Source: Pseudophaeomoniella oleicola
Taxonomy: Eukaryota; Ascomycota; Eurotiomycetes; Phaeomoniellales; Phaeomoniellaceae
Reading direction: 5' to 3'
Assembly (NCBI GenBank): GCA_003868215.1
Contig: QWDQ01000024.1
Coordinates: forward strand, 186,001-250,000
DNA length: 64,000 nt
A program made the position numbers and the translations under genes. Position 1 is the stretch's first letter, and each line of letters begins with the position of its first letter. Below, piece after piece: positions 1-34,665 of this stretch. The notes below the pieces were generated by a model. The model saw nothing but the letters and a program-made list of their open reading frames with translations. It made no database searches and was not told the origin of the DNA.

Positions 1-1118
1 TAAAATTTTTTTATAATTTTTAAATAATTATAATATCGTATTTAATAATTATTTTATATATAAAAAATAATATTATAATAAGTTCTCTACTCTTCTGAAT
101 ATTATATTATAAGATTTTTAGATTATAATTTATTATTTATAAATTTATTTATATTTAACGGTATTTATTTATTTTTTATAATTTAGATTTTTATTTCTTT
201 TTATTCGTTACGTTTATAAAATAATTATAATTTATATATTTTTAAAATATTTAAGACTTGCGTTCCGAATAAAATATTTAATATATTTTAAAATTAATTT
301 TATATTTAAATAATATCTTTTAATGATTTATTTAATTTACGTTTTTTTATTTATTTTTTTAAATTTATTAACGATTATCTCTTTTTTTTAAATTTTTAAA
401 CCGATTTAATATACGATTTAAAAAATATAATTATATTATTATTTATAAATATTTTATTTATTATAAAATAATAATATAATATGATTTTTTTAATATAATT
501 CGTTCTTTTTATTTTTCTTTTTTAAATATAATATGTATTCGATTTAATATTATATTTATTTTATAAATAATTATAATATCTATTTTTTAATTATTAATTA
601 TATACGTTTATTTTATATTTTCCGACGTATTAATTATATATCGTTTTAAATTAGTAATTATATTATAAATAATTATATTTTTAATATTTATAATATTATA
701 AAACCCTTAATTTTCGTTTAAAATATTAATAATATTTAATTTTATATTTAATTTATATATTGTTTTTTATTATATTATTAATTTACTTTTTATATATTAT
801 TTTTATTATTATAAAAACGTAGATTTTCTCCGGAATAATATTTTTATAAAATTATTTTATTTTTTTAATTTTTAATTATTTATTTTTTCTAATTTTAACT
901 TTTTATATTTTTTTAATAAATATTTTTATATTTTTTCCGATGATCTGCCGGTATAATTTATATATTATAATTATATATAATTTATTTATTATATATTTTA
1001 TTTTTAAAATCGATTCGATTTAGTTTATATTTAAATATAATATTTTTATTATATTATAATTTTTAATCTAAATAAATATCCGTTTAGGTTTAACGAGTCT
1101 TATTTTAAATATTAATTT
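1..1118 (+). repeat. Repeat segment S, copy 1 (cut by window start)
   Basis: This segment matches 9,114-10,231 in the same orientation at a constant offset of about 9,113, so almost no insertions or deletions separate them. It also matches 1,719-2,836 in reverse complement (coordinates sum to about 2,837). The copies differ mainly by C/T and G/A transitions, as expected if they were duplicated first and mutated by RIP later. It is probably an internal part of a retrotransposon and may extend beyond the window. Confidence 0.85.
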
Positions 1119-1718
1119 TAATTAATAGGAGAAAAAGGAAAATGAAGGAACCTCTTATAGAATCTAGAATATATCTAGAGAAAATAAGACTATTAGTTTT
1201 AATAAAAAAAAAATTAATATCGTTATAATATTTAAAACTAACGAGCCGCGTGCTAAAAATATAAAAATAATAAATATAACGCGAGATAATTCTTAATTAT
1301 AATAATAATTAAATTAAATATAATTATAATTAAATTATTAAACACATCGAATACTTCTGGTAATAATTTAATAAAAAGAAAAGATTTAAAAAACTATAAA
1401 AAAAATTAAAAAATAAAATTAAAAAAAAAACGATAAATAAAAAATATATAATAATTATACAGAAATATTATAAGAATAAAATTATATTACGAAAAATAAA
1501 AAATAAAATTAATTTATTTTATTAAAAAAAACCTATAATTAAAATATTTACGTAAATAACCGCGGGCGAATCGCGGACTAAATATATAAAAATAAAAACC
1601 GAAAAACGACGTAAAGAGATTATAATTAAAATTAAAAATAAAAAAAATTAATAAATAATTAATAATATATTTAGAGATAAATTATTAATTAAAATTAAAA
1701 AAAAAACGAATTAAATAT
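1119..1718 (-). repeat. Repeat segment T, copy 1 (inverted)
   Basis: About 600 bases that match 8,180-8,790 and 10,224-10,834 in reverse complement. Landmarks are the CpG-bearing words near 1,242-1,250 and 1,560-1,575 and the purine-rich outer end at 1,129-1,180. T could be a long terminal repeat or a long terminal inverted repeat; the orientations seen here do not decide it. Confidence 0.8.
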
Positions 1719-2836
1719 AAAATTAATATTTAAAATAAAACTTATTAAATTTAAACGGATATTTATTTAAATTAAAAATCATAATACGATAGAAATATTA
1801 CGTTTAAATATAAACTAAATCGAATTAATTTTAGAAATAAAATGTATAATAAATAAATTATATATAATTATAATATATAAATTATATCGATAAATTATTG
1901 AAAAGAATATAAAAATATTTATTAAAAAAATATAAAAAACTAAAATTAAAAGAAATAAATAATTAAAAATTAAAAAAATAAAATAACTTTATAAAGATAT
2001 TATTTCGAAGAAAATCTATATTTTTATAATAATAAAAATAATATACGAAAAATAAATTAATAATATAATAAAAAACGATATATAAATTAAATATAAAATT
2101 AAATATTATTAATATTTTAAATAGAAATTAAGAGTTTTATAATATTATAAATATTAAAAATATAATTATTTATAATATAATTACTGATTTAAAACGATAT
2201 ATAATTAATACGTTAGAAAGTATAAAACGAATATATATAATTAATAATTAAAAAGTAAATATTATAATTATTTATAAAATAAATATAATATTAAATCGAA
2301 TATATATTATATTTAAAAAAATAAATAAAAAAAAAATTATATTAAAAAAATCGTATTATATTATTATCTTACAGCGGATAAAATATCTATAAATAATAAT
2401 ATAATTATATTTTTTATATTATACGTTAAATCGATTTAAAAACTTAAAAAAAAGAAGTAATCGTTAATAAATTTAAAAAAATAAATAAAAAAATATAAAT
2501 TAAATAAATCGTTAAAAGATATTATTTAAATATAAAATTAATTTTAAAATATATTAAATATTTTATTTAAAACGTAAATCTTAAATATTTTAAAAATATA
2601 CGGATTATCGTTATTTTATAAATATAACGAATAAAAAAAATCTAAATTATAAAAAATAAATAAATATTATTAAATATAAATAAATTTATAAATAATAAAT
2701 TATAATTTAAAAATCTTATAATATAATATTTAGAAAAGTAAAAAAATTATTATAATATTATTTTTTATATATAAAATAATTACTAAATACGATATTATAA
2801 TTATTTAAGAATTATAAAAGAACTTTATATAAAATA
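1719..2836 (-). repeat. Repeat segment S, copy 2 (inverted)
   Basis: Reverse complement of 1-1,118 and of 9,114-10,231. A shared landmark is the CGGATAT word at 1,756-1,762, mirrored as ATATCCG at 1,075-1,081. With copy 1 it forms the arms of a 2.8 kb palindrome around segment T. Confidence 0.85.
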
Positions 2837-3115
2837 TTATTTATTAATTAATAAAAATTAATTTTAGACTTTATTATTTTAATAATAATTAAATAAAAAT
2901 ATATTTTTATATTAATAAACGTATTTTAAATAATATATATAAATAATATATAATTAATATACATCTCGCAACTTTATTAATAAATATTATATACGTAATA
3001 ATATATATATATAACGTATATAACTTTTCGTAAGAATTTATAATAATAAATTTAAAAATATTAAATTAAATTAAATCTAAATTTAAATAATTAAAAAAAT
3101 ATATAATAATAAAAA
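2837..3115 (-). repeat. Repeat segment R, copy 1 (inverted)
   Basis: Continues segment S inward and matches 8,815-9,113 in reverse complement, including the run of alternating T and A near 3,003-3,015. It extends the shared part of the two main copies to about 2 kb (1,119-3,115 against 8,815-10,834). Confidence 0.7.
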
Positions 3116-6100
3116 ACTTTAATCTTTATTATTTAATATAAAACGGATTATAAATATAATATATATATTTAATTATTATAAACCTTATTTATATAATAAA
3201 AATTAAAGAGATAAATTAAATAATCTTATTAAAAATATTAATTAAAATTAAAAAAAAGAATTAAATAATATTAAATTTAATATTCGTAAATCGATATTTA
3301 ACGGAATATATATTATATTATCGCGTTACGTATAAAATAAAATAAATATTAAATTATTTTTTAATTTATATAAATCTCTTTCTAATAACCCCCGAAGCTG
3401 AGAAAAAAACGATATATAAATAAAAAAAAAAAAATAATAAAATGACGGAATTACTAAATATATATAAATCGTAAATAAACCGTATAATGGGTATAATAAT
3501 TATAATTAATAAAAAAATCAATTAATTTATTAAAGCCTATTAGAAAACGGTTAAAAAAATAATATTAAAAATAATTATTAAAAAAACTAAAACGAGAATA
3601 AAAAAAACGGACTAATTAATAAAATATTAAATAATAATAAATAACGTAAAACGCGCGAAACGTATATTTAAAATAAATAATTTATAGAAAATTAAATAAA
3701 AATATTAAAAATTTATAAATAAAAAAAAATTTATTATTAGAAAATATAGAATAAAATAATAAAAAAAATTTATTAAAAATCTTTAAAAAAATAAAAATAT
3801 TTATAATTTTATAAAAAAAATATAAACGAAACGCGGTTATAATATTATTATTATATTAATATTAAAAAAAGAAGAATTAAAGATAATAATAAATATATAA
3901 AAAAAAAATTAAAAATAAAATTCTTTTTTTAAATTAAAAATATTAATTTAATAAATATTAACGAGACGGTTTATCTTATTTTAATAAATATTTTTAATAT
4001 AATTAATTCGCGTATAATAAATAAATTTATAATACGCGTTCCGTTTAATAAAATATTTAAATTAAATAAATTATCGAATCGATTCTAAAAAGAAATAAAT
4101 AAAGTAATTATAAAATAATTTTAATTTATATTTTAAATATATATAATATATAAATATTATCCCGTTTATTTTAAAATAATTATTATCGTAATTATTAAAA
4201 AATTAAATAAAAACTATACGTCGCTAAAAATATATAGATTTATAATTTTATTAAATATAATTAATAAAATATATAAAAATTATTTAACGAAATATATTTA
4301 TATTATTATTAAAAAATATATCTTATTTCCGTTTAATCAGATGAGGGCGAGAGAAAAAAAATTAATTAAATTAATTTTATATTATATTATATAATATATT
4401 TAGATAATATAATAATAAAAATTAAAAAATAAATAAATAATATTTATATTTAATTTCGATATAACTGAAGTTTTTAATAAAATTTTATATTAAAGATTAT
4501 TATATAATCTAAAAAAAAAAATCGGAATAAATAATAATTTATATAAAATTATTTTTAAATAAATAATAAATAAATCTTTAACTAAAAGAATAAATCTCGT
4601 AATTAAAATATATAATATATAATATATTTTAAAACTTGATTTTTTTTTTAATTCTTTTTCTTTTTTTTTAACGCTGATTTACTAAATCTATATCAGAGAC
4701 TTAAATTCGGGGTAATTATTTATAAATTTATAAATAATATTAATTTAATAATTATAAATAGATTAATGAAGAAAACTTATTAAAAATTAAAAATAATATA
4801 CGTAAATTATATATAATAAATAAATATATATAAAATAATCTTTACGTTTATTAAATATAAATTAATTTATATAATGAACAATCTGAGAAGATATAATTTA
4901 AAAAAATAATTTAATTAAAAAAAATAATAATAATATTAAAAAAAAATTAATATATTAAAAATACGTATTAATACTAAATTAATTTAAAAATCTTAAATAA
5001 TTAACGTTATTAATAAAATCTTAATATAAATAAAATATCTAATATCGCTGGCGATCAGTATATAAAACGTAATTATATTATAAACGAGACGTATTTATTT
5101 TTAAATAATTAAATTTATAATAATATATATTATTATTATATAAATTTTAGTTATTTTAAATAAAAAATAAAAAAACTAAATTAAAAAATTAAAAATTATT
5201 TAAATATAAATCCTTCGGCGTATAATAAATATTTATTATATAATATTTATATTAACTTTAAAAAAAGAACTCATTATTTTAATTTTAAATATATATATAA
5301 ATTAAACGATATTAAAGGCCAGCGAAAGATAAAAAAAAAATTAAAAATAATATATTAAGAAAATTCTTAATAAACTATTTCTTATAAACGGGCGAGAATA
5401 ATATAAATTAATTATATTAAATAAACGAATAAACTAAGCTATAAATATATTAAATAAATAAATAAAGAAAATAAAGAAAAGTTATAAAAAAAATTAAAAA
5501 AATCTTAAATATTTATATAAATAATAAAATACGAGCTAAATAAAAAGGATTTTAAAATAATAAAAATAAAAATTTATTAATTAATAAAAAAGAATAATTA
5601 TAATAAAATAATATTTTATATATATATTTAATAAAAACGGAGAACTTAATTATTATTTAATTTAAAATTAAAAAAATTAATTTAAAAAGCTTTTTATATT
5701 AAAGAAAGATTTTAAAAATAGAAAATTCTTATTATTTTTATAAAAATAATAAATAAATAATAAGATATATAATTTTATATTATAATAAATAAAATACGGA
5801 AAGACTGCGGAACGTATATAAATTAATTAATTATAATATATTATTTAATATAGCGAAAGAGCTAAAGAAATTAATAAAATAAATAATAATAAAAAAAAAT
5901 TTAAAATAATTTAGATTAATAAAGAAAATAAAAAAGAAATAAATTATTAAAAAAATAAAAAAAAAATAAAAAAAAAGTAAATAAAATATTAATATTTAGA
6001 TTAATTATAATCAGCGTAACGTCTAAACGGATTTATTAATTAATTAATTAATAAAAAAAAATAAAAATTAAATAAATATAATATAATATTATAATAATAA

Positions 6101-8179
6101 AAATAAAAATAAATCAGTTATATATAATACGCAGAAATAATATAAATTTATTTTAAATTAAAAGTCTTTATTATTTTTTTTATATTTTTTTTAATATTTT
6201 TTTTATTAGTTTTTAATTTTTTTTTTTTTTAAATTTAATTATATCTTCTCTGACTAAAAAGAAAAAATTATATTATATTATTATAATTAATTTTTATTAA
6301 TCGTATATAAAAAATATATTTATAATAATAATATTAATCTCTATAATAATATATATAATTTAAACTAAAAATCGAATATTTATATTAATAATATAATTTA
6401 AATTAGTTTTTTAATTAACGGTATTTTTAGCGGTTTTATTAACGATAATAAAAAAAACCGACGGAAAATAAATAATTTATAATAAAAATATTTAAATTAC
6501 GTATAAATAGAAATAATTAGATATTGAAGATATAAAAATAATAATAATTATTAATAATAAATTAATTTAAAATAATTTTTAAAATAATATATATATTATA
6601 AATAATATATTTATAATTCTTTAGAATCTAATATACTGTTAGCGATAAAAAAATAAATTTAAAATAATATTTATAAATTTATAAATATAATTCGTCTTAA
6701 AATAATATTTATAATTAATTAAAATAAAAACTAAATAAGATAATTAATAAATTAAATATAAATAAATAATAAATAATATTCACGGGTAATATAATTATAA
6801 TTATTAATTCGAGAGTTAAAACGCTTAACGTAATAAATATATTATTAATATTAATTAAAAGCTATATAAACGAGGAAATAAACGGAAATAATAATAAATA
6901 AAATCATTATATTTATAATTAATTAACGGAACGCAGATTAAACGCGAATATATTTATAAAAAAAAAAATAAAAAAAAATTTAAAATAATATTAAACGATT
7001 AATCGCTCTTAGAATTATCAGAAAATAAAAAAAAATTAGATTTTTTTATAATAATAAAAACACGGAACGTTTATAAAAAAAATATTAATAACGAAAATAA
7101 TAAAAACGTCGAAAGTAATAAAAATAATAAAAATAATAAAAATAACGAAAATGATTAAAAACGTAATAAATTATTTTTTTAATATTATTTTTTTTATATT
7201 TATCTTCTTTAATATAGTTTTTTTTAATATAATTTTTTTTAAAAATATTATATTTTACGAACGTTAATTAAATGTTATTAAAATGAATTAAAAAGGATAA
7301 AAACAGACTAATATAATATATAAATAATTAAGAAAATTAAATAAGTAAAAGATATAAAAAAAACTATATCTTTATATTATATTAAAAATATATAAATAAT
7401 AATTAAATTTATTATTTTTATTAATAAAAGACTTCTTAATAAGAAATTATTATTTAAAACTATTAATAGAAATAATAAGAATAATAGAAATAATAAAATA
7501 TTATTTATAAATAATTATAATTATAAAATATAAATAAATGATATATTAGATAAATAAGTTAAAAGTATATTATTTATATACTAATTAACCGCGATTAATA
7601 TGTAATTAATTAATTTTATTATTAATTACAGAATAAAGACTAATTAAAAGAATAAAATAAAAAAAATATATATATATAACGACAGAACTAGATATTTTAT
7701 TAAATAAAAATTAATTATTATATTATAATTATATATAACGGGTAAGATTTATTTACGAAAAGAATACTTTTAAACGATTTTATTATAAAACGAATTAAAA
7801 GATATATAAAAAAGAAATAAAAAGTTAGAATTATAAAATAAATTATTATTTAATTTTTTTTTTATAATCTTCTACGGGCCACTAGCCAGCGGGTAATTAA
7901 TAAATAAAAAATATATTAAATAATTATATAAATTATTACTAAAATATTTCCGAAGTATTTTAAAAAAAAATATATTTTATATATAAAAAATATAAATATA
8001 TAGACTAAAAGCCGATTTATTTAATATATATAAATAAAATACGGAAGATATATTTATTCTTTATTAATAAAAAAGATAAAGGTAGCGGTTTATTTTAAAA
8101 ATAAATTTATATTATTAATTAGAAACGGCTATAAGGACTAGATAAAAACATTAGTAAAGCTAATAATATTAATTAAATA

Positions 8180-8790
8180 TTAATTTTATTTTTAATTTAT
8201 TTTTCTTTTTAATCTTAACTAGTAGTTTATTTTTAAATATATTATTAATTATTTATTAGCTTTTTTCATTTTTAATTTTAATTATAATCTTTTTACGTCG
8301 CTTCTCAGCTTTTATTTTTATATATTTAATTTATAATTCGCCCGCGGTTATCTACGCGAATATTTTAATTATAGATTTCTTTTTATAAAATAAATTAATT
8401 TTATTTTTTATTTTTCGTAGCGTAATTTCATTCTCGTAATATTTTTATATAATTATTATATATTTTTTATTTATTATTATTTTTTCTTTAATTTTATTTT
8501 TTAATTTTTTTTATAATTTTTTAAACCTTTTCTCTTTATTAAATTAATATTAAAAATATTCGATATACTTAATAATTTAATTATAATTATATTCGATTTA
8601 ATTATTATTATAATTAAAAGTTATTTCGCGTTATATTTATTATTTTTATATTTTTAATACGCGGCTCGTTAATTTTAAATATTATAACGACGTTAGTTTT
8701 TTTTTTTTTATTAAGATTAATAGTCTCGTTCTCTCTAAATATATTTTAGATCCTATAAGAGATTCCTTTATTTTTCTTTCTAATCTGTAT
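8180..8790 (+). repeat. Repeat segment T, copy 2
   Basis: Direct repeat of 10,224-10,834 at a constant offset of about 2,044, and inverted relative to 1,119-1,718. Landmarks are the CpG-rich word at 8,659-8,664 and the pyrimidine-rich outer end at 8,720-8,785. Confidence 0.8.
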
Positions 8791-8814
8791 ATTACAAATA
8801 ATCTTATTAAAAAT

Positions 8815-9113
8815 ATTATTAAAATCTTTTATTATTATATATTCTCCCGATTATTTAAATTTAAATTTAATTTAATTTAATATCTTTAGATTTATTACCG
8901 TAAATTCTTACGGAGAGTTATATACGTTATATATATATATTATTACGTATATAATATTTATTAATAAGATTACGAGATATATATTAATTATATATTATTT
9001 ATATATATTATTTAGGATATATTTATTAATATAAAAATATATTTTTATTTAATTATTATTAAAATAATAAAGTCTAAAATTAGCTTTTATTAATTAATAA
9101 ATAATATTTTATA
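8815..9113 (+). repeat. Repeat segment R, copy 2
   Basis: Reverse complement of 2,837-3,115. It joins directly to segment S at 9,114. Similarity to copy 1 fades near 8,800-8,815, which marks a junction or truncation point. Confidence 0.65.
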
Positions 9114-10231
9114 TAAAATTCTTTTATAATTTTTAAATAATTATAATATCGTATTTAGTAATTATTTTATATATAAAAAATAATATTATAATAAGTTCTT
9201 TACTTTTCTAAATATTATATTATAAGATTTTTAAATTATAATTTATTATTTATAAATTCATTTATATTTAATAATATTTATTTATTTTTTATAATTTAAA
9301 TTTTTATCTTTCTTTATTCGCTATATTTATAAAACGACGACGATCCGTATATTTTTAAAATATTTAAAATTTATATTTTAAATAAGATATTTAACGTATT
9401 TTAAAATTAATTTTATATTTAAATAATATTTTTTAATGATTTATTTAATTTACGTTTTTTTATTTATTTTTTAAAATTTATTAATAATTATCTTTTTTTT
9501 TAAGTTTTTAAACCGATTTAACGTACGATATAAAAAACGTAATTATATTATTATTTATAAATATTTTATTTGTTATAAAATAATAATATAATATAATTTT
9601 TTTAATATAATTCGTTCTTTTTATTTCTTTTTTTTAGATATAATATATATTCGATTTAATATTATATTTATTTTATAAATAATTATAATATTTATTTTTT
9701 AATTATTAATTATATATATTTATTTTATATTTCCCGACGCACTGACCGCACATCGTTTTAAATTAATAATTATATTATAAATAATTATATTTTTAATATT
9801 TATAATATTACAGAATCTTTAATTTCCGTTTAAAATATTAATAATATTTAATTTTATATTTAATTTATATATTATTTTTTATTATATTATTAATTTACTT
9901 TTTATATATTATTTTTATTATTATAAAGACGTAGGTTTTCTTTAAAATAATATTTTTATAAAATTATTTTATTTTTTTTAATTCTTAATTATTTATTCTT
10001 TTTAATTTTAGTTTTTTATATTTTTTTAATAAATATTTTTATATTTTTTTCGATAATTTATTAATATAATTTATATATTATAATTATATATAATTTATTT
10101 ATTATATATTTTATTTTTAAAGCCGATTCGATTTAGTTTATATTTAAATATAATATTTTTATTATATTATGATTTTTAATCTGAATAAATATTTATTTAG
10201 ATTTAACGAGTTTTATTTTAAATATTAATTT
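9114..10231 (+). repeat. Repeat segment S, copy 3
   Basis: Direct repeat of 1-1,118 and inverted repeat of 1,719-2,836, collinear over about 1.1 kb with mostly transition differences. Here S runs straight into a T copy in the same orientation (10,224-10,834). Confidence 0.85.
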
Positions 10232-10834
10232 TACGTTTAATTTTTTTTTTTTTAATTTTAATTAGTAATTTATTTTTAAATATATTATTAATTATTTATT
10301 AATTTTTTTTATTTTTAATTTTAATTATAATTTTTTTACGTTATTTTTTAATTTTTATTTTTATATATTTAGTCCGCGATTCGCTCGCGGTTATTTATAT
10401 AAATATTTTAATTATAAGTTTTTTTTTTATAAAATAAATTAATTTTATTTTTTATTTTTTATAACGTGATTTCATTCTCACAGTATTTTTATATAATTAT
10501 TATATATTTTTTATTTATTATTTTCTTTTTTTTAATTTTATTTTTTAATTTTTTTTATAGTTTTTTAAATCTTTTTTTTTTATTAAATTAATATTAGAAA
10601 TATTCGATATATTTAATAATTTAATTATAATTATATTCGATTTAATTATTATTATAATTAAAGATTATCTCGCGTTATATTTATTATTTTTATATTTTTA
10701 ATACGCGGTTTATTAATTTTAAATATCGTAACGACGTTAGTTTTTTTTTTTTTATTAAAATTAATAATCTCGCTCTCTTTAGATATATTTTAAATCCTAT
10801 AGAAGGTTTCTTCATTTTTTCCTTCTTAATTCGA
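10224..10834 (+). repeat. Repeat segment T, copy 3
   Basis: Direct repeat of 8,180-8,790 and reverse complement of 1,119-1,718. The outer end, with a purine/pyrimidine-biased stretch, lies at 10,765-10,834. Confidence 0.8.
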
Positions 10835-11840
10835 TTTTTTCTATTAAATATTATAAATATATTTTACGTTTAAAACGCTGCTAATAATATTTTATAAAAT
10901 TTAAATTAAATAAATATAAAAATAAAATTAATAAATATATTCTAAATTCCTTAAAAACGCGTTAATTATAATTCGATGTATAGATTTTTACATTATTTAT
11001 TATTAATTTATTTTAATTCGTTTATAAAATCTTAAATTATAAAATAAAGTTTTCGATAATGTTAATTAATATAAATAATATAACGTCGTTACGTTCTGAA
11101 TCTGAATTAAATTTAAAATATATAAAGTCCGAAAATTTATTTTTTTAAATTATAATAAATATTATAATTATTATATCTTATCGAGGCTTATTTTTATAAA
11201 TTATAAAAAAAAGAATTCTTTTCGTAATAATATTAACGTTATTAAAACGACGCGCCGTCGGCGTTAATTTAAATAAAATATTTATTATAAAATAAACGTT
11301 ATAATTAATTTATATTTAAACGATACGTTTATTTAAACTAAAAACGCAGATTTTAAATATATTTAGATATATATTAAATTTTTTTAACGCGATAACGTTT
11401 ATAATGTTTTTTAATATATTATTTAAATCATTTATAAATAATATATTTATAAAGATTTTATTTAATAATAATATTTTATTATTTTAAATCTGGATTCAGC
11501 CTCGTTCGAATATATAAATAACGATAAATATTATTATTTAGTTTAATAAACGCGTTAAATCTTAAAATATTAATTTAAATATATAAACGTTTATTTCGTA
11601 TACGTTAGATATATTTAATTAAATTTATATATATATATATATTTTTTTAATTATCTAACGTTTGAATAAATCTGATTTAAATTTCGAAATTACGCGAATC
11701 CTTCGTTTAAATAAATATTAATTATTTAAATTTATTTTTAATGAAATCCTAAAGGTCTATAATGACTGATTAAAGTCAGAATAAAAAAAATAATTGTAAT
11801 AAAAATCGTTAAATTTTAAGGTAAGTAAAAACTTAATCGT

Positions 11841-12739
11841 TCTAGATGTACAATGATAGAGAGTCTGTCTGAGCGTACGTAGTAAGAGGGTGGGATCTGG
11901 GCAATCAATCATCCGTGGGGGTTAAGCCTGTACTGTAGCCTTCATTCTGCTATGGTGACTTAGGTGCAATTGGCGCCGATAACCACCTGCAAACCTGCAC
12001 CAGACCAGTTATCTCTGCTATGCTTCTACCCCCAATTTCAATTTTCTTCCTTTAATGGTTTCCTCACTCTCTCCAACTCAAGTCCTGCTGTGGGAATAAT
12101 CTACAACTCTAGAATTCATTTGCTATACGACTTCTTCTTTATCTTCATCTTTCTGTTTGATGATCGATGTCATCGCTTTCATTCGACTGTGCTGAGGACT
12201 CCTCTCTTCTATCCCTGACTTTGACCCTGATCCTGACCCTGCTCGCCTGACCCTGACCGTTACCCACCATCCACTAAACCCATCAGCGCTGGATTGTCAA
12301 GCGGTGAAGACTGAACTAGACCTGGTCCAGCTCTAGATCATCATCTCCATCCATTTGACCCCATTCAAGCCTTGATCTATTCCGCCCGACTGGTGCTTTC
12401 ACTGGCCCGACTTTGCACATCCCACGGGGCAGAACTAATATCATTGATTATGATCTCTCTTAAACTCCCCCCGTCTCTTTCCTGACCGACACATTGGTCG
12501 GATTGTAGGTCATTGTGGTCTAGGCTGATCTGACCGCAATTGAGAGTCTTCATTATGCTAAACCCTACCCTTTGCATATTCTTCCTTGTGTGTGACGTGA
12601 GTTGGTAACAGGAAGCCAGTCTTTGATTCATGTGGTATACGATACTGCCGGTCTGGCATGCAGTAAACAACAGCCTTCACTGTCTCTCACCTCCATAACC
12701 CCTTCGCAGCGACTGTACACGAATGCGCAAGTTAGGACA
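11841..12739. other. Gene-free stretch upstream of the DUF7514-like gene
   Basis: Ordinary composition resumes here. No convincing gene is seen. At 12,213-12,262 there is a loose array of CCTGAC/CCCTGA words. The short frames are not supported by codon use or homology. The stretch probably holds the promoter and leader of the next gene. Confidence 0.5.
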
Positions 12740-24047: not shown

Positions 24048-26834
24048 CTATTCGTAGAGTTCCATGCCTGTATCCCTGTCCTCAATCTCCGCAATCGCCT
24101 CATCCTCGTCAATCATATCTTCGTCATCCTCGTCGTCCGTATCAGTATGATTTGGGAGAACAACTATCCTGCCGTCTTCAAGTTCGACGCGAGCAATCTC
24201 ACCGTCTCTTACTTGTCCTCTGAGAATAAGGACAGCCAGACGGTTGAGAACCTCTTTCTCAATGATACGTTGAAGAGGCCTGGCACCGTAAGCAGGCGAG
24301 TACCCAGCACTGCCAAGGTAATCCTTGACTTCCTCGGAGCATTGAATAGTGACTTTTCTTTCGTTGGCCTCCAGACGTTTCTGAATTTCGCTAATACGTA
24401 GATCAACGATCCTGCGGATCTCGCGTCTGCTGAGTCTGTTGAATATGACAGTGGAGCTGATACGGTTGAGGAATTCAGGCAAGAAGTAGTTCCGCAACGC
24501 TGTCATGACGAGCTCCCTTGTTGTTGGGTCGATCTTACCATCGGGTGCGTTTTGCCTCGAAAGGTACTCAGCCCCAAGGTTGCTTGTCATCACAACGATG
24601 CAATTGCGCGCGTCGACCACTCTACCCTGGCCGTCGGTAATACGGCCATCATCCATGAGCTGGAGAAGGACTGTCAAGACTTCCTTTGCTGCCTTCTCAA
24701 CTTCATCGAACAAGAGAATGGAGAACGGACGTCTCCTGAGTGCCTCAGTCAACTGACCACCGGCATCATGGCCAACGTATCCTGGAGGCGCACCAATCAT
24801 TCTGCTCAGTGAATGCCTTTCCTGGTATTCAGACATGTCGAAGCGTATCATCGCCTTAGGGTCGTCGAACAAGAACTCTGCAAGAGCTTTAGTAAGCAGA
24901 GTCTTACCAGTACCAGAAGGACCACAGAACAAGAAGCTTGGAGGTTGATTGGGGTTGCTGAGACCGGACCGTTGCAATCTGATTGCATTGGAGACAGATC
25001 CAACCGCTTCTTTCTGGCCAATTACGACTTTTCCGAGGTATCTTTCCATATGGAGCAGCTTGTCTTTCTCGCTTGTCTTAAGTCTGGTAACAGGAATACC
25101 AGTCCATCTTGCAACAATTTCATTGATTTGGTCGGGTCCAACGGCGTCAGTGACGAGGATTTCTCCTGAACCTTGTCTTGCAGAGTTCTCGGCTTCAGCT
25201 CTCAACCTTTCTTGTTCCAAGAAGTGAATGCGTTTTTCGGTATCTGGGATAGCGTAGTAAGTGAGGTCAGATGCTGTCATCAAGTCACCTGATCGCTCCG
25301 CCTCCTCCTTCTTGATCTTGAGTTGATCAAGTTTCATCTTTGCTTCCTGAATGTCCCTACTTCTCGCCTTCTCGCTCTCGTAGTGTTCACGAAGGGGCCT
25401 CAACTCTTCCTCGACATTGGCGGCTTCGGCCTTAGCCTCGTCCAGACGGATCTTCGATGCCGCATCCTTCTCACGTTCCAACGCGTGGATCTCGATCTGT
25501 AATTGACGCAGTTTCCTTTCGAGGTTGTCTAGTGCTTCTGGTTGCGATTCACGAGTGACACGGACTGCTGCTGCTGCTTCATCGATCAAGTCCACGGCTG
25601 AGTCTGGCAGTCGGCGTGCCGTTAAATAGCGCGCTGCAAGATTCGCTGCCGCGACAATAGCACCATCGAGGATGTTGACACCGTGGTGGACTTCGTATCT
25701 CTCTTTGAGACCTCGAAGAATGGAGACGGTTTCTGGTATTGTAGGCTCCTTGACAAGGACCTGCTGGAATCTTCGTTCGAAGGCCGCATCTTTCTCAATA
25801 TATTTCCGATATTCGGCGAGGGTAGTGGCACCGATACAGTGCAATTGACCACGGGCTAGCATGGGCTTCAGTAAGTTAGCAGCATCCATGCCGCCTTCGC
25901 CGCTAGAGCCAGCACCCATCAGAAGGTGGATCTCGTCGACAAATAGAACGACCATCTCCTTCGAGTCCTCGATCTCTTTGAGAACACCCTTCATACGCTC
26001 TTCGAATTCGCCCCTGTATTTGCTGCCAGCGACCAGTGAGCCCACGTCAAGGGACAACAGTCTGCAAGCTGCCAGATTTGCTGGGACATCGACGTTGACG
26101 ATTCGTTGTGCCAAACCTTCAACGACTGTGGTCTTACCAACACCAGGTTCACCAATCAGCACGGGATTGTTCTTGGTGCGCCGGCTGAGAATACGGATGA
26201 CTCTTCTGATCTCTTCTTCTCTGCCAATGACGGGGTCGATCTTCCCTTCTCGTGCCATCGCAGTCATATCGATGGTGAACTTCTTAAGGTTTTCGTTTTC
26301 TTGCTCTGCGTCTGCTGTCTTCGAGTCTACCCGCTTTGTACCTCTGATTTGCTGAATCGCATCGGTGATGAGTTTTGGATTGGGGACATTAGCCTCAGCC
26401 AAAGCTTTTTGGACATCTTTGTCTTGCGCCAGACAAGTAATCAGGTGGTCGATGGCAATATAGCTATCTTTCTGCGTCTTCGAGAGTTCGTTGGCGCCTC
26501 GGAGGATCTTTGAGAAGGCCGGTGACACGGAAACGTGTTCTGGCGGGGGATCTTGACTTGGTAATCTGACTAGATGTTTGTTGATGGCCCTGCTCAGTAG
26601 TTGTACGTCTCCATGTGCTCTCTCAACTACTTGTTTAAACAAAGGTGCTGAACTGGTGTTATGTGAGGCGTTAAATGAGGCTTGTTGATCTTTCGATTCA
26701 TCGACGGGTGGATCGAAGAGGACGGATGCTAGATGAATGGGTAATATCTGCGCGTGAGAATATTGTTCTGCAAGTGCTGCGGCATCGCTCAATGCTTTCT
26801 GAGCACGATCTGTAAATTGCATATTCGCAGCCAT
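24048..26834 (-). CDS. HSP104: Hsp104/ClpB disaggregase
   Basis: Hexameric AAA+ chaperone that pulls proteins out of aggregates with Hsp70/Hsp40 and gives thermotolerance; cytosol and nucleus. A single exon gives 928 residues from ATG 26,834, chosen because CCAACATGG is a good initiation context and MAANMQFTDRAQKAL matches family N-termini. Domains in order: Clp N-domain (about 5-165), AAA-1 with Walker A GEPGVGKT near 228-235 and DEIHLLMGAG, coiled-coil middle domain (about 410-530), AAA-2 with GPSGTGKT and LLFDEVEKA, then the C-terminal small domain and a very acidic tail. The tail (DTDDEDDEDMIDEDE) places it with cytosolic Hsp104 rather than mitochondrial Hsp78, as does the N-domain. A stepped heat-shock element lies 286 bases upstream. 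Confidence 0.97.
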   Translation of the reverse strand: MAANMQFTDRAQKALSDAAALAEQYSHAQILPIHLASVLFDPPVDESKDQQASFNASHNTSSAPLFKQVVERAHGDVQLLSRAINKHLVRLPSQDPPPEHVSVSPAFSKILRGANELSKTQKDSYIAIDHLITCLAQDKDVQKALAEANVPNPKLITDAIQQIRGTKRVDSKTADAEQENENLKKFTIDMTAMAREGKIDPVIGREEEIRRVIRILSRRTKNNPVLIGEPGVGKTTVVEGLAQRIVNVDVPANLAACRLLSLDVGSLVAGSKYRGEFEERMKGVLKEIEDSKEMVVLFVDEIHLLMGAGSSGEGGMDAANLLKPMLARGQLHCIGATTLAEYRKYIEKDAAFERRFQQVLVKEPTIPETVSILRGLKERYEVHHGVNILDGAIVAAANLAARYLTARRLPDSAVDLIDEAAAAVRVTRESQPEALDNLERKLRQLQIEIHALEREKDAASKIRLDEAKAEAANVEEELRPLREHYESEKARSRDIQEAKMKLDQLKIKKEEAERSGDLMTASDLTYYAIPDTEKRIHFLEQERLRAEAENSARQGSGEILVTDAVGPDQINEIVARWTGIPVTRLKTSEKDKLLHMERYLGKVVIGQKEAVGSVSNAIRLQRSGLSNPNQPPSFLFCGPSGTGKTLLTKALAEFLFDDPKAMIRFDMSEYQERHSLSRMIGAPPGYVGHDAGGQLTEALRRRPFSILLFDEVEKAAKEVLTVLLQLMDDGRITDGQGRVVDARNCIVVMTSNLGAEYLSRQNAPDGKIDPTTRELVMTALRNYFLPEFLNRISSTVIFNRLSRREIRRIVDLRISEIQKRLEANERKVTIQCSEEVKDYLGSAGYSPAYGARPLQRIIEKEVLNRLAVLILRGQVRDGEIARVELEDGRIVVLPNHTDTDDEDDEDMIDEDEAIAEIEDRDTGMELYE

Positions 26835-27919
26835 GTTGGGAGATATCAAAATGTAACTTGCGATGTGTATGTGAAGCGCTTCAATCTGCGCGATGTGATT
26901 TCGATTTTAAAACACTCATGCAAAGTGTATGTTCATCTATGGTTAGGAAAAAAGAAGAGAGAGAAGCAAAAAGCAAGTCAAGCCAGAAGGAAAATATATC
27001 TCTGGTCTCCTGCCAACTTGAACCGGGTCGTTCGGGCACTGGAACAATCGTTGAATTTGAAAGAACTGGCCAGTAAATGCTCGTCTCTACCCGATATGCA
27101 CAGAACGGAGACAGAAGCATTCTGGGCGCTTCTAGGACCTTCGTCATAGCATTTCCATTTCTGGTTTAGTGTGGCGTAGGTGAGCGGCGAGGCGGGGCAG
27201 AATGGAAATGGAAGGCGGTCGGCGGCGGGGATGGTTTGGGATTGTTTCTACTTTGAATACATAATTAATACCTAACGTACTAATTTACGTAGCATAGCAT
27301 AACTACTACGTACACACGAGATGAGATGCGTCTGAATTCGATCAGTGCGGACCGGTAGGATTCTGCATGCTGTGTGCATCTGTACTGTACAGCAGTACAT
27401 ACTATGGTCTAGTCGATCATAAAGGTAACATTTCAACAAGGCAAACGTATCCCAACTCCATTCGCTCTCATCGATGTGATCTTCCCTTTCGAGGCAGATG
27501 ATTCCGTCCGCTTCCGCGTTTCAATCCTACGTTTGTTAGGGACTTGTACTACGTAGTGCATAGTGTGGCTTTCTGCAAGACCCAGGATACTGAGGTGAAG
27601 GAGTCTGGTCGGCATTATGACATATGCGAAGGGTAGTTTCGAGACGAGTGGATTTCAGGGAATAGATCGAGAGCATTGTATTTGGCAACGATGACCAGAG
27701 AATATCCAGTACTTCACATTTAGGACCACAGTGGTCTTTGGTATCCTGCCGATCTCAGTATGCAATCTGTCTCAAGTCAATTGGAAAAAGAGCACCTTGT
27801 ATACAACTAATTTGGATATCTTTATTTACAGTGAACACATGCGTCGGGACGCAATTCAGTAACAGTCGCTTGAACGCTGAAATTGCAATACAACAGAATA
27901 CAACGGGTCTTTCCCCCTA
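26835..27919. other. Intergenic stretch upstream of HSP104
   Basis: About 1.1 kb with no supported gene. It carries the stepped heat-shock element, a GC-rich patch near 27,178-27,235 and two ACTACGTA-type words (near 27,303 and 27,548). The downstream end of the glucan synthase relative lies at its right edge. Confidence 0.45.
27120..27142 (-). promoter_or_regulatory. Step-type heat-shock element upstream of HSP104
   Basis: TTC triplets stand at 27,120, 27,130 and 27,140, exactly ten bases apart, the spacing of the step-type heat-shock element bound by yeast Hsf1 trimers. Extra GAA words at 27,103 and 27,114 flank it. Position and spacing are read directly; Hsf1 binding is inferred. Confidence 0.65.
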
Positions 27920-30900
27920 CTATGGTTTCGTCAACTGCTCCTTTCTATAAAACTTGAACGCAACCAAATTGATCCCAAGGTTGAGCCCCAAGCCAATCCA
28001 GAACCACGGCTGTCTGATGCCAGCCATGACATCGATGCCAAAGTTTGGAAAGACTGGACCCGGTCCTTCACGGTCTGGGCCAACCGCCTGAGCAACAATA
28101 GTTGCAGCAGCACCGATAACCTGAGCCGTGATCAGAGTGAACGAAACGTGCAACCTCGTCAATGTCGCCAGGAGGATCATGCCAAAACCGACCCCTTGGA
28201 ATGAGTCGAGCACGCCTAGCCAAAGCCAGAGTGCCCGACCGGCAAATGCTGAAGCGGCTGCTGAACCAGTCCAAGGTAAGTAGGCTCCGATACCAGAGGT
28301 ACCCCAAAGCATTTGCGCCCATCGAGGAGCCCCTAGCCCAATGGCGAAGAGGGGCATGATCCATGAATGCCTATTGCTTAGTACGCCAAAAACGAGGAGG
28401 ATGGCTGTCCAGACAACGATGAAGAACAAGGCCGCCAAAAGAGCCATTTGCCATGTTGGCACGGCCCGTGAGCCCCAGAAATAGAGCCAGCTGCGGCCGT
28501 ACGGTGCGGAGAGAAAGAAGTTCTGAATAAGAATAGATCCGAAGAACCAAAGAATGAGTCTGCGGCGGTATATGCTTCTGAAGAAGCTCGGAACGCTTCC
28601 TGGTGTCTGTCTGTAGTAGTCTGGGAGACCCATGAATAAGACCAGGCCGGCTAGGCACATGATAGCACCGATCGTGACACCTACGGTGGTAGCAACCACA
28701 GGCTTCGTGACGATTAAGGTGGCTGTATTGGTACCAGCAGCTTCAAGCCTGTTCAAGGTCGACGCCCACCACCAAAGCCCGGCAAGGTAGACCTGCTGGG
28801 TTCCCTGGATAATACACGCTCTATACACCCACATTGGGACAGTAGCACCACCTATAAACGTCAGTATCGTTACCTGCAATAGTGTGACCCAACATACCTT
28901 GATCCCCGAAGTTCAAGGCGAAGTAAATTGAGCCGCTCGCGGATGCTGCGGCGTAAAAGCCAGTACCAACATTCTGATTCCACGTCTTGCCGTAATCGGT
29001 GCTGATCAATGGCGCCACCCCGATCAAAATGAACGAGATGCCATAGAGGAAGAAAGGCGATGACAATATGAAGCGAGATTGGAGTTGACGGTAGAGAAGC
29101 CACCAGATGATGGAGAAGACCAGATATATACCCGACACCGTGTACAGCTTGGAAGCTGGGCCTCCAACTTGTCCTGTGAGAAGTGTGACTTGATAAGAGT
29201 TCGCCGCCATGATCTGACCAAGCGCAAGTAGAAACGAATAGACTGGCCAATCTCCGATTTTTCGCACCAAGAATTTCCGGAGACCCTTGGGAGCAATATA
29301 GTCATCATGAAGGGCAAATTGCTCGTCGTCTTCAGCTTGTGAGACCATGAGGTACGGCGCCTGAGCTTTGTTGTTGAATACGCGGCTCGCACGTTTACCC
29401 ATCTTGACCTCGCTCATGCGGCTGAACCAATCTTTCTCACTCTTCTCAATATATTCCTCGATGCATGTCTTTGTCGAATTTTTACCGCTAAGGTCTCCAA
29501 GCATGGATTCAAACTCTCTGGCGTAGTCCTTGTTCTGATCCTTGAAAAATGGTGCGACATTCTGCAGTTGGAAGTCTTTCCTGTCACCAACGATGCTGTT
29601 AATGCTCAAATTAGATGTCCGGCGCGATCGCCTGTATGGATATTGATCTTCCGTGTGTAGAAGATTCTCCGCCGATGAATGAGCGGAATCATTGTACGCC
29701 CCGAATTCGGGTTGCGGAAGCCCGTCGTCAGGAGCGATGGAGCTAGCTCTTGACGCTGTTGGCTCTGGTAGTGAAATCGACGGCAGTCGACCACTCTCTA
29801 GCCATGCCGGAAATGATGTCGTATTGGAAGATGATTGGACGCGTGTACCAAGTCCGTAGCCAAGCTGTGGTTCCACAGCTAGTAAAGTAGCACCGCTTGT
29901 GGACCGTGCCCTCGTGCGTCGACCGCTTTGTTCCTCGGTTCCGGTGTCCACAGTCAGCCCAAGACCTGTTGCAGCTGTTGAGAGCCTTCTCTTATGTGTA
30001 GAAGCATATCGATCTCCGCTGGATGGGCCAGTTGAGGAATCACGGTAAGTAGCATCCAGATCTGGTGTGTTTGCCCTTGAAGCTTGCTCGGAGTTTGGGT
30101 CAATAGTGTCGGTCGATTCGCGACGAGACGAATCATGGCCAGGGCCCTTGACACTGCCCATTCGAGTTATATCAATTCGCGGCACAGGTGGTAACGTAAG
30201 ATCTATGGCGCTGCTTGTACTTGTCGCGCGAGATCGAGTCACTGGGACATTGGGGTCATCATAGGTGCTCAATCTGACTTGGCTTGAGCGGCGACGATCT
30301 TGGCTCATGCTGATGCGGCCTTCTGAGGGTAGGTCGGTGAAGCTGCTAATGGATCTTCGGTGTGACTGGAAGCTAGCCCGCTTCGATCTGTTCGCGTACT
30401 TGTTATGCTTATCGATAGACATAGACTGGAGAGTCTCAAGGTCTCCAACCCATTGGGCGACCGGGAATCTTTGCTTTGCGCTACGTGCACGCAACTCGGC
30501 TCTGACCGACTTCTTAGACCCCAGCGCATCTTCAATAGCGTTCCCGAATTGGCTAAGCATATGCTTTGTCGTTGTAGATTCGACGGTGAACCACCAGCCC
30601 GGCATCTGCCCCAATCCACCAACACGAGCGCCGACTCCCAGTGCACCTTTCCTTCCGAATTCAACGGCGACGAGACCGAAAGGTTCATCCCTAGATGGGA
30701 TTAGGGCGAACTCGGCGCCAGAGAAGATGAATGGAGGGAGTGCAGTAAATTCTGGTTTCGAGAAAACTCTTCCAGGAAAGACTTGCATAAGCTTGTCTAA
30801 TTTAATCGCCGCGAAGCGGCCATAAAGATCAATGACTGGTCCAATAGCGATTAGTTGAGCCTTGGGGTGCTTCTCCAAGATGCTAGGGAAGATGTCGGCT

Positions 30901-32716
30901 ATAAGATCGACTCCTTTCTGCATTGACCAACGCCCAACAAACACGAAGAGTTCGGCTTCAGGATCGACGTTGAGGCCAGCCCACTCTTGAGCCTTCCTAC
31001 GGAGCTCACCGCGCTCTGCTTCAAATGCTGCATCGACGGTGACTTTCGAGGTTTCGGCAGGGTCATTGCGGTTCCATTCGGCAGTGTCGCTGGGATCCGG
31101 ATTTGGGAGAGCTCCAATCGTCTGTAGACCCCAAAATATGGGGTATCTTGCCCAAGAACGTTTACCATATTTCTTTGATACTCCTACCGCTCCGAATCCC
31201 TTCTGATGTATACGAAGGTAGCTGGCGCCCGCGTGAAGAAGGTTGAACACTTCTCCAAATTGAACATATTCTTGGACAATCTCGTTGGAGAGATTGTAAA
31301 CGCGGCATACCTCATCCGCTTCCTTCTCGTTCCGCATCGGCCACAAGCCTTGAAACTCGGCGTTATGAAGTGAAAGGCAACAGGGAATAGTATCAGGTAA
31401 AAGGTACAAGGGTGCAATTGCGCCGTGGTAATCATTGATATGGTAGAGATGAGGCTTGTACCGGCGGATGGCTTCTGCGATGCATTGGTTCCAGGCAGAG
31501 TAATAGACTGTTCAGCGTTAGTGAGAATCGGTCCGCCTCCACTACTTCGTTACTTACTAGCACTTTCGAGGTCGTCCATACGCTCTGGATAAGGATCGGT
31601 CTTTGACTGTTGTCGAAACACAGGAGCATCCAAAAGGACGTAGGTGATATTACGCAGCACGTGCATTCGAACATGGATCTCGTATCGACTGCCAAGGATT
31701 TGTGCAACCATTGGTTCTTGCTCCTCCTCTGGCTTTTCTGGGTATTCGACACCTCCTACACAGGGTACGACCCAAATGAGATCCTGGTGACCAAGATTTT
31801 TACCCATTAATTGAGCCATAACGCCCAGGCCACCGATTTTTATCTTGATAGACCAGTCCTCGATATCGTATTCCATCGTAGCAATGAGTACGCGTCGACG
31901 ATTTGGAGCGCCTAAAGCTGCAGCAAGGCCCAGCTCGGTATCAGGTCCAGGTGTCGGAAATCTCGAAGGTGGAAGTAATGATAGGGTGCTCTTCATCTTT
32001 TCAGAAAATCGCTGATCTTGCATTGAAGGTCCAGAAGGTAACCGAGTAAACTTCTGCCGGAGTCTCAGGGGGATGAATGACGAGTTTGATACCCCGTACT
32101 TGTTGAACTTGACTTGGTAGAATGACTGTATGTATAGCAGGACGCCGACGGAAGCCGTCAGGATTGGAACACCGGCAAGTAGTCCGTACATGAGGATCTG
32201 ATGTAATTGCGAACCCATCGGATACAATGTCATCTTCCGGGTATCAGGAGCCAATTCCACGGTCCACCCTAAATAAGGATAGTCTGGACTGCTAGAAATC
32301 TCGAACTTGTTGGTAAAGACCACATGGTGGCGCGTAGTGGTCGTATCTAGAGAACTGGTTAGCTCATCTCAGCTATACCAGTCGCAGCCCGCGTAAACCA
32401 TCAGCCATGCGCACTCACTTCCATCAGGTTTGTTTGAAATCGCTGTCACGTTGATATTTTGAGGCCATTCGGCTAGAAGCTCATAGGTATAATCCCCATC
32501 CGACAGATGTTTCATTTTATGAGATATTCCTGCATCTGATTGCCACTGGTTGAAAGGCCCCTTGATATCAACCTCAGAAAAGGTGGCATTCGCGATATCT
32601 CTGGCGCCATGGTCGATCCGTCTCGCTATATCTACTTGTATCGACTCTGATACCGAGAAGAGAACAACAAACGTAACAGAAAGCACCGACGAGACAAACG
32701 GAAATGGGGACTTCAT
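27920..32716 (-). CDS. Alpha-1,3-glucan synthase relative lacking GH13 domain
   Basis: Predicted plasma-membrane synthase of cell-wall alpha-glucan. Four exons, 32,716-32,419, 32,346-31,558, 31,507-28,898 and 28,851-27,920, give 1,542 residues; the introns are 72, 50 and 46 nt with clean GTGAGT, GTAAGT and GTATGT donors. Order: signal peptide (1-25), a short extracellular carbohydrate-binding-like segment, one membrane helix (about 150-172), a cytosolic GT5 starch-synthase-type domain with KIGGL at 269-273 and the E-x7-E motif at E637/E645 (DEPFGLVAVEFG), a Ser/Arg-rich linker, then a multi-helix export domain from about 1,140 to the end. Canonical Ags1/Mok1 proteins are near 2,400 residues because an extracellular GH13 domain precedes this. 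Here no GH13 sequence exists upstream on this strand, and the protein starts with its own signal peptide, so it looks naturally short, as reported for fission yeast Mok14. Confidence 0.9.
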
Positions 32717-34665
32717 GGCTAGCCACAGATGTAGATGGTCTCGAGTACGTCTGTGACCGACTGAAGTCGATATAAAGGAGAAACTTGAACAACTGAGAAA
32801 GAAACAGGAAAGGAAATAAACAGATGCAATGGTCGAGATCACAGTGTTGATCTATGTCCACACGAGATCCATGCCTACCCTGATTGAGGGGGTCCAACCA
32901 TATAAATTCCTCACCGGCAGCTCATAGATGTTGGTGGATGTATGTTGCGGCTTCTCGCTCCACTGCCATGGGTCGAAGGATGATGCTGTTTTAGGACAAA
33001 TCACAGTGGGCGCAGTATTCCCACGAGTGGAGAGCAAGGCTGAAGGGGAGCTCAAGGTGTATGAAGGTGATGTTAAATTGGTGCTGAGGTGAGGCGGAAA
33101 ATACATTCCTTGCAAGGCTAACGTAAGGTCGTCGGGCAAGCCACTTGGGCGTACAGTGCATTGAGCGCGTGGACGTTCGAACCCGCCCTGCCATAGCTGT
33201 CGCGTACCTCAAGTAAAGGTGAGGACAATTGGGAAATCACTTGAAACGTGAGCCAACACATGGAATTGCGGAGTATGACACATTGAGGCGATGTTGAGGG
33301 GGGTAAAGAGCAGGAGTCGATCAGGTAAGCGCCAACATACGCTCCAAAGATGATGCTGTACTAGAAGCGGAAAATTGTCAGCAGCCAAGCTTCGCTTACC
33401 CCCAATCCAACTATCATCATCCTATTATAAGGCATGTTGACATGCGAAGGATCATTTGCAACTTCGAAGCTGCACGGCAGGGTATCAGCATTGGCGTTTT
33501 GGCGTTTTGGCGTAAGTTGGCAATGCAGTCAGGTTGGGAGGAAGAACTGATGTTGAACGGCGAGGTCGTTCACACCGGAAAGACGGGCATGTATGCGATG
33601 CGGCATGTGGCGTACACCTAGTATGATACTGTACAGTATGATTGTATGATTACACGAGAGACATGCATGCAGTAATATGCAACTTTGCTGTACTCTCAGG
33701 CCACTTCACATATGTCGGTCTCTCTATGTTGACATATAACATGTTTCCTGTTGATGTCGTCGTGGAGAGTCACAGTCGCAGACGAGAGGACTCACCCAAC
33801 ACAACATCACCTTGTACAGAGCATAATCGACTAAATGAAGTTGGTGAAAGTGCTGTCAAACCATTGCTAATTATAGGTTAGATAGTGAGCCGCAGCATTG
33901 TGCCCAACGAGCCGCTCACCTTCATCATTACATCCACCGATTGGAGGTTTCGTAAGATGAATATGTTCATCTTTCATTCAATCTATAACATTTCCTCCAC
34001 ACCAGGCTGGGGACCATCACAAGCTGCAAACGCTCCAGCATATCGAAGTGGAAGCTCCAGGCTGTAAGCCGTAGAGCAAGAAACAAAAGATCGGCACGTC
34101 TGAGCTGACTCTTTTTAAGAAAACCAGTAAGAGCCGAGTCTTATATGGCATACCTCCAAGCATCTGGAGACATTCCACCATCAGATGCCTATCTCTCTAT
34201 ACCGCTTCTCGAGTGTCTGTGCAGAATCGTGTCCTAGTGTCTTTGTCGCCAACTCCATAGGCGCAGACCTTAGCCGAAGCTGACACAGAAGCAAGCAAGG
34301 CTGACGATATCCCCTGCTTTCTGATTCACCAGTTCTGTTTTGGTTCAGCAGTTTAAACTAGGGTAGGCAGTCTATAGTGCTTTACGATGTGTTCATCGCC
34401 TCGCCGCCCTCGTTTGCTGACGCCCAATCACCCGAGACTGAGCTTCCATGTTCAGTAGTATTGGTTCGTCCGTTTGTCTAATTTAAGTACTGGTGCCTCA
34501 AAGCATTCATATACAGTCTGGATCCTTACGGGAGGTATGGCAGAACGTCTAAAGCACATACTCTTTACTCGAGACCTCGAAATATAACGGCGGGTGAGAG
34601 GTAACACCAGTTCAAGCAAATCTTTTGTGTTTTGGTTTCGCATTACAATCTACCTCATATTCAAT
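32717..34665. other. Shared divergent promoter region of the alpha-glucan pair
   Basis: About 1.9 kb between the start codons of two head-to-head genes. No GH13-like or other supported frame is present on either strand. It must hold both promoters and any shared control sites. A 9-base unit is repeated at 33,495-33,513 (GGCGTTTT type). Confidence 0.5.

Follow-up and report, generated by a model that had tools for sequence, protein, structure and literature searches.

An alpha-glucan synthase paralog without a GH13 domain beside a divergent GH13 gene in Pseudophaeomoniella oleicola

A 64,000-nucleotide stretch of the Pseudophaeomoniella oleicola genome (contig QWDQ01000024.1, positions 186,001 to 250,000; hereafter the window) encodes an alpha-glucan synthase (Ags) that carries the GT5 synthase domain and the multi-helix exporter domain of its family but not the extracellular GH13 domain. 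We find that this protein (hereafter short Ags) is a real, old and conserved short form of Ags. It is a reasonable inference that synthesis and export are here separated from transglycosylation. On balance, we lean towards a reading in which short Ags builds and exports alpha-glucan whose chains would be coupled or trimmed in trans, most likely by the product of a neighbouring GH13 gene.

The gene has four clean exons, and the coordinates, strand, start and length of about 1,540 residues given in an initial annotation of this DNA are correct. Its three introns (72, 50 and 46 bases) are all of the GT-AG type (3/3), the start is the ATG at 32716, which is the first in-frame ATG of the open frame, and the 1,542 codons contain no internal stop. 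Hydropathy, from which the signal peptide and helices were called, and Pfam bear out the architecture first described: a signal peptide, a short extracellular segment, one membrane helix, a GT5 domain and, beyond a linker, a multi-helix exporter with many hydrophobic helices from about residue 1150 onward. Pfam places GT5 at residues 251-457 (E 3.2e-15), with two GT group-1 matches within 542-663; the KIGGL (269-273) and E-x7-E (637-645) motifs are identical in all five ags paralogs of this genome. Short Ags has both hallmarks of core-family membership, i.e. GT5 with KxGGL and E-x7-E, and a fused C-terminal exporter. The extracellular remnant (∼125 residues) corresponds to the stretch nearest the membrane in the extracellular region of full-length proteins. 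It contains three N-glycosylation sequons (residues 43, 89 and 100) and misses a loop of ∼15 residues (YGDxD...LPP) that is present in 4/4 paralogs. Introns 1 and 2 are private to short ags compared with the four paralogs.

Across the genome, which spans 26.1 Mb in 112 contigs, a profile search for GT5 (PF08323) yielded five matches, short ags among them. The other four, named by contig (C63, C70, C90 and C43) and modelled by spliced protein-to-DNA alignment, are all full length (2,401, 2,462, 2,468 and 2,440 amino acids, respectively) and GH13-positive. Pfam finds no GH13 (PF00128) match in the 1,542 residues of short Ags, and as a control it detects the domain in 4/4 paralogs (57.0 to 85.4 bits against a cut-off of 22). 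An exon-wise GH13 search of the genome, which gives a lower bound, found the domain inside the ags genes of C63, C90 and C43 and not in that of C70, for which the spliced model is positive. Among the matches listed in this search there is neither a separate GH13 gene on the contigs of the four paralogs nor a second one on the short ags contig. We also searched for a GH13 remnant by tblastn: the N-terminal 1,150 residues of each paralog, together with the neighbouring amylase, served as queries against 32420-34656 (word size 2, all matches listed). Each paralog gave one clear match (E 5.2e-6, 5.7e-7, 4.5e-8 and 4.9e-5), all on the retained exon-1 segment, and the 1.94 kb upstream (32717-34656) holds no GH13 remnant (best E 0.28). 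Both initial claims, that the protein has no GH13 domain and that no remnant lies in the 1.9 kb upstream, are thus confirmed. Together with the deep branch of short Ags within the ags tree of this genome (see below), this supports the view that the gene is a stable short form rather than a broken gene start.

No relatives were found in viral contigs or prokaryote genomes, so all whole-protein comparisons rest on the five ags genes of one genome. Viral contigs gave no pattern match in one search and 92 pattern matches with 0 confirmed in a second; prokaryote genomes gave 210 pattern matches with 0 confirmed; and the 19 plasmid records are all below 60% identity, the 10 listed being glgA. Within the genome, the GT5 domain of short Ags is 65.2, 76.7, 72.5 and 73.3% identical to those of C63, C70, C90 and C43, compared with 67.7-76.3% among the four. 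The corresponding values are 49.0-55.2% (427-429 aligned residues) and 49.4-57.8% for the exporter, and 27.8-31.6% and 40.2-54.1% for the extracellular remnant. Short Ags keeps 275 of the 290 GT5 columns and 136 of the 152 exporter columns that are identical in the four paralogs; in the extracellular part it keeps 12 of 28, and 6 of the 28 are gaps in short Ags.

The same pattern emerges when each full-length protein is left out in turn and scored, alongside short Ags, on the columns identical in the remaining three. For GT5, the left-out protein and short Ags keep 290 and 311 of 331 columns (C63), 290 and 279 of 301 (C70), 290 and 286 of 312 (C90), and 290 and 286 of 307 (C43). For the exporter, the counts are 152 and 162 of 189 (C63), 152 and 147 of 171 (C70), 152 and 151 of 172 (C90), and 152 and 148 of 176 (C43). 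In the extracellular part short Ags is far behind in every set (28 against 13-15 of 33-40). These counts indicate that its GT5 domain is about as constrained as those of the full-length proteins, i.e. better kept than that of C63 and a little less well than those of C70, C90 and C43. Measured on a fixed tree, the branch of short Ags is 0.24 for GT5, 0.51 for the exporter and 1.40 for the extracellular part; full-length branches are 0.12-0.48 for GT5 and 0.37-0.56 for the extracellular part, where the short branch is 2.5 to 3.8 times longer. In brief, only the extracellular remnant evolves fast, and GT5 and the exporter are strongly constrained. A recent truncation of one paralog is ruled out because the GT5 domain is about as distant from each paralog (65-77% identity) as the paralogs are from one another, 275 of 290 columns are kept and the branch is deep.

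The gene next to short ags, which the initial annotation leaves out of account, is transcribed divergently, 1.95 kb away. Its product consists of a leader, a GH13 domain (6e-50), domain C and a Ser/Thr-rich tail with a hydrophobic end, which by eye resembles a glycosylphosphatidylinositol (GPI) anchor signal. Of the 565 residues queried, 17-490 can be aligned to structurally solved Taka-type amylases, and the protein keeps the regions around the Asp, Glu and Asp that we take to be catalytic; region II reads DSVVN compared with DTVKH in the solved Taka-type enzyme. Gene fission, in which this neighbour would be the excised GH13 domain, was considered and rejected: the protein is 37-44% identical to six other Taka-type amylases of the genome (BLASTP, 480-538 aligned positions), whereas its best matches to the GH13 domains of Ags reach only ∼30% over at most 161 positions.

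Table 1. Features of short ags and its surroundings (window positions).
Feature	Position	Strand	Basis or content
Short-form ags gene, 1,542 amino acids, 4 exons	32716-27920	-	sequence, splicing, translation
Exons of short ags (stop included)	32716-32419, 32346-31558, 31507-28898, 28851-27920	-	
Predicted signal peptide, ∼residues 1-24	32645..32716	-	hydropathy (hydrophobic leader ∼5-23)
Extracellular remnant, ∼residues 25-150, intron 1 inside	32195..32644	-	alignment with paralogs
Single transmembrane helix, residues 154-172	32129..32185	-	hydropathy
GT5 synthase domain, ∼residues 244-741, intron 2 inside	30372..31915	-	Pfam, motifs, alignment
Multi-helix exporter domain, ∼residues 1111-1542, intron 3 inside	27923..29264	-	hydropathy, alignment
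Intron 3	28852..28897	-	C43 intron at same alignment column and phase
Shared intergenic region, 1.95 kb	32717..34665	.	no GH13 remnant; no open frame of at least 170 codons
Divergent single-exon GH13 gene, 562 amino acids	34666..36354	+	leader, GH13, domain C, tail

The following route is suggested for short Ags: (i) its GT5 domain would polymerize UDP-glucose in the cytosol; (ii) its multi-helix domain would export the alpha-glucan chains; (iii) the chains would probably leave unjoined, because short Ags has no GH13 domain; and (iv) if any enzyme couples or trims them in trans, it would be another protein of the wall, with the neighbouring GH13 protein, the closest one by gene position only, as the most likely candidate. 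If GT5 makes alpha-1,4 stretches and GH13 joins two chains, the product would be expected to have half the usual length and may be rich in alpha-1,4 bonds (iodine-staining), in line with what is reported for Mok14 of fission yeast. A more specific version, which we hold only tentatively and consider rather doubtful, is that the two genes form a head-to-head unit of a GH13-less synthase/exporter and a wall-anchored Taka-type GH13 enzyme, with the two catalytic halves of the synthase divided between them and acting in trans; the GH13 enzyme would couple or rebuild the chains into a surface glucan different from that of the four full-length paralogs.

Several points weigh against our preferred reading. 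The neighbour is a candidate by its position, at least six more Taka-type amylases are encoded elsewhere in the genome, and the full-length paralogs could supply the GH13 activity instead. Aspergillus nidulans AmyD is described, in the relevant passages of PMC10512252, as shortening or reducing alpha-1,3-glucan and not as joining it. The comparison covers one genome only, and in the number of shared columns kept, short Ags falls a little below the left-out full-length protein in three of the four leave-one-out sets. Finally, the suggestion of an alpha-1,4-rich product leans on Mok14, which is not known to carry GH13 and is at most a putative ortholog.

The same observations bear on a different role, in which short Ags works as an accessory subunit of a full-length Ags (e.g. 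in a hetero-oligomer) whose GH13 domain joins the chains of both proteins, the neighbour being incidental. Four full-length paralogs are available in the genome for such a partnership, and the conservation of GT5 and the exporter would agree with it. However, the extracellular part, over which the partner GH13 domain would have to reach, shows the lowest conservation among the three regions compared, and we regard this role as unlikely. Decay is a much poorer explanation. A paralog that has lost its GH13 domain and is on its way to a pseudogene would account for the fast change of the extracellular remnant, but such a gene would hardly keep 1,542 codons without stop or frameshift, 275 of 290 shared GT5 columns and a GT5 branch within the usual range (0.24), which makes degeneration quite improbable.

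We then consider whether short Ags lost its GH13 domain or never had it. The tree of GT5 plus exporter is ((C63,C70),(short,(C90,C43))), in which the main split has 99.1/99 (Shimodaira–Hasegawa-like approximate likelihood ratio test/bootstrap) and C90 + C43 has 81.7/79. GT5 on its own recovers this topology, though weakly supported (82.8/74 and 9/45), and the exporter on its own gives 96.1/98 and 90.2/86. Among the five ags of this genome, short Ags is a deep branch of the tree and does not show the shallow nesting inside full-length proteins that, according to the initial annotation, would have marked a recent truncation. When three bacterial GlgA proteins are added, the root falls on the short Ags branch, with the four full-length proteins together (80.6/74), which would be expected of a lineage that split off before GH13 was fused to the synthase. 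However, the approximately unbiased (AU) test keeps all four root trees in its confidence set (AU 0.20-0.84, with 0.20-0.33 for the three alternatives to this root). It was run with 1000 resamplings, a number that the program warns is too low, and the outgroup branch measures 3.6. Moreover, intron 3 is common to short ags and C43, and the extracellular segment is common to short Ags and all four paralogs. Amylase motifs are also described for 309 synthases surveyed across Dikarya, whose length averages 2376 +/- 166 amino acids (PMC7389562, in the passages concerned); this makes loss of GH13 simpler than late gain. The divergence of short Ags appears to be deep and the root does not settle between loss and primitive absence, but these points taken together render a primitive form very improbable. 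An artefact, i.e. a full-length gene whose 5' exons were missed or dropped from a model read from genomic sequence alone, is extremely improbable, as the hydrophobic leader begins at the first in-frame ATG and nothing in the 1.94 kb between it and the divergent gene resembles GH13 at better than E 0.28.

Some further observations concern the genes and sequence around these loci. An Hsp104/ClpB-type AAA+ gene lies directly downstream of short ags (window 24051-26906, minus strand). About 30 kb at ∼10% G+C (window 1-11900; G000:C30 ∼168000-186000, L046, L047) adjoins normal sequence of 48% G+C. Its window part has 47 CpA and 60 TpG dinucleotides compared with 240 ApC and 205 GpT, and a TpA/ApT ratio of 1.05; this is a strong signature resembling repeat-induced point mutation (RIP), and the block may be a centromere or a cluster of dead repeats. 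Three further amylases of the genome, L037 (C26), L038 (C58) and L040 (C28), also have GPI-like tails by eye; their region I reads NDM, NDM and YEV, respectively, compared with NHM in the solved Taka-type enzyme, which may mark transferases. Among the synthases, the C63 ags (L006) is the most divergent in GT5 and has 71% G+C at third codon positions, compared with 52-54% in the other four ags. Structure models of C70 are of low confidence: that of the membrane-proximal extracellular region (predicted local distance difference test (pLDDT) 48.8, 4 sequences) was not used as evidence, and that of the exporter (pLDDT 51.3, 6 sequences) was taken only as a lead.

The bonds made by the fungal synthase domain and the contribution of GH13 are described as unsettled in the cited part of PMC5753165, which calls for more studies and an in vitro assay; the roles are unsettled partly because the usual enzyme carries both domains. 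According to the same source, the synthase domain of fission-yeast Ags1 gives iodine-staining alpha-1,4-glucan, a temperature-sensitive mutant in the extracellular domain of Ags1 gives single chains of ∼120 residues, and A. niger AgtA moves alpha-1,4-glucan onto nigerose and nigerotriose. AmyD is reported to lower the mass of alpha-1,3-glucan in Aspergillus. A conserved synthase/exporter without GH13 beside four full-length versions offers a natural test of the roles of GT5 and GH13. It also cautions that some of the genes counted as ags may encode proteins with a different polymer as their product. Our literature search, which covered the relevant papers in part, did not come across any filamentous fungus described as having an Ags without GH13.

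Short Ags can be compared with four known systems. It shares the signal peptide, membrane helix, GT5 motifs and exporter with full-length Ags1, AgsA, AgsB and AgsE (compared via the four paralogs of this genome), but lacks the GH13 domain, retains just the final portion of the extracellular region and has 1,542 amino acids compared with a published mean of 2376 +/- 166 for 309 entries (PMC7389562). In the Aspergillus agsB/agsE-amyD(agtA)-amyG cluster, as outlined in PMC10512252, an ags gene likewise adjoins a separate GH13 gene, and the tail of the GH13 protein encoded next to short ags is GPI-like by eye; A. niger agsE and agtA bear the consecutive numbers NRRL3_00248 and 00249 in the relevant entries of PMC7389268. 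There, however, the GPI-anchored amylase accompanies a full-length AgsB that is described with an extracellular domain. That cluster also contains the intracellular amylase gene amyG, whereas the lower-bound exon-wise search lists one GH13 match on the short ags contig. The model published for AmAgs2 of Aureobasidium, which acts in pullulan synthesis, is similar in that GT5 makes a long alpha-1,4-glucan and the exporter passes the chain out (PMC11905612, as excerpted), but the amylase domain that AmAgs2 is described as using is part of the same protein, and short Ags has none. Mok14 of fission yeast, of ∼1,370 amino acids, is a precedent in build. Like short Ags, it is a membrane alpha-glucan synthase paralog; it is not known to carry an amylase domain, and the two would share a GH13-less core. 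In the passages concerned, Mok14 is said to make the iodine-reactive (alpha-1,4) polymer of the spore wall (PMC9214231, PMC4065261) and is named 'alpha-1,4-glucan synthase' in a gene list that also contains two alpha-amylase homologs (PMC7712723). Short Ags, likened to it by description, differs in lying in a RIP-like genome and in having an adjacent GH13 gene.

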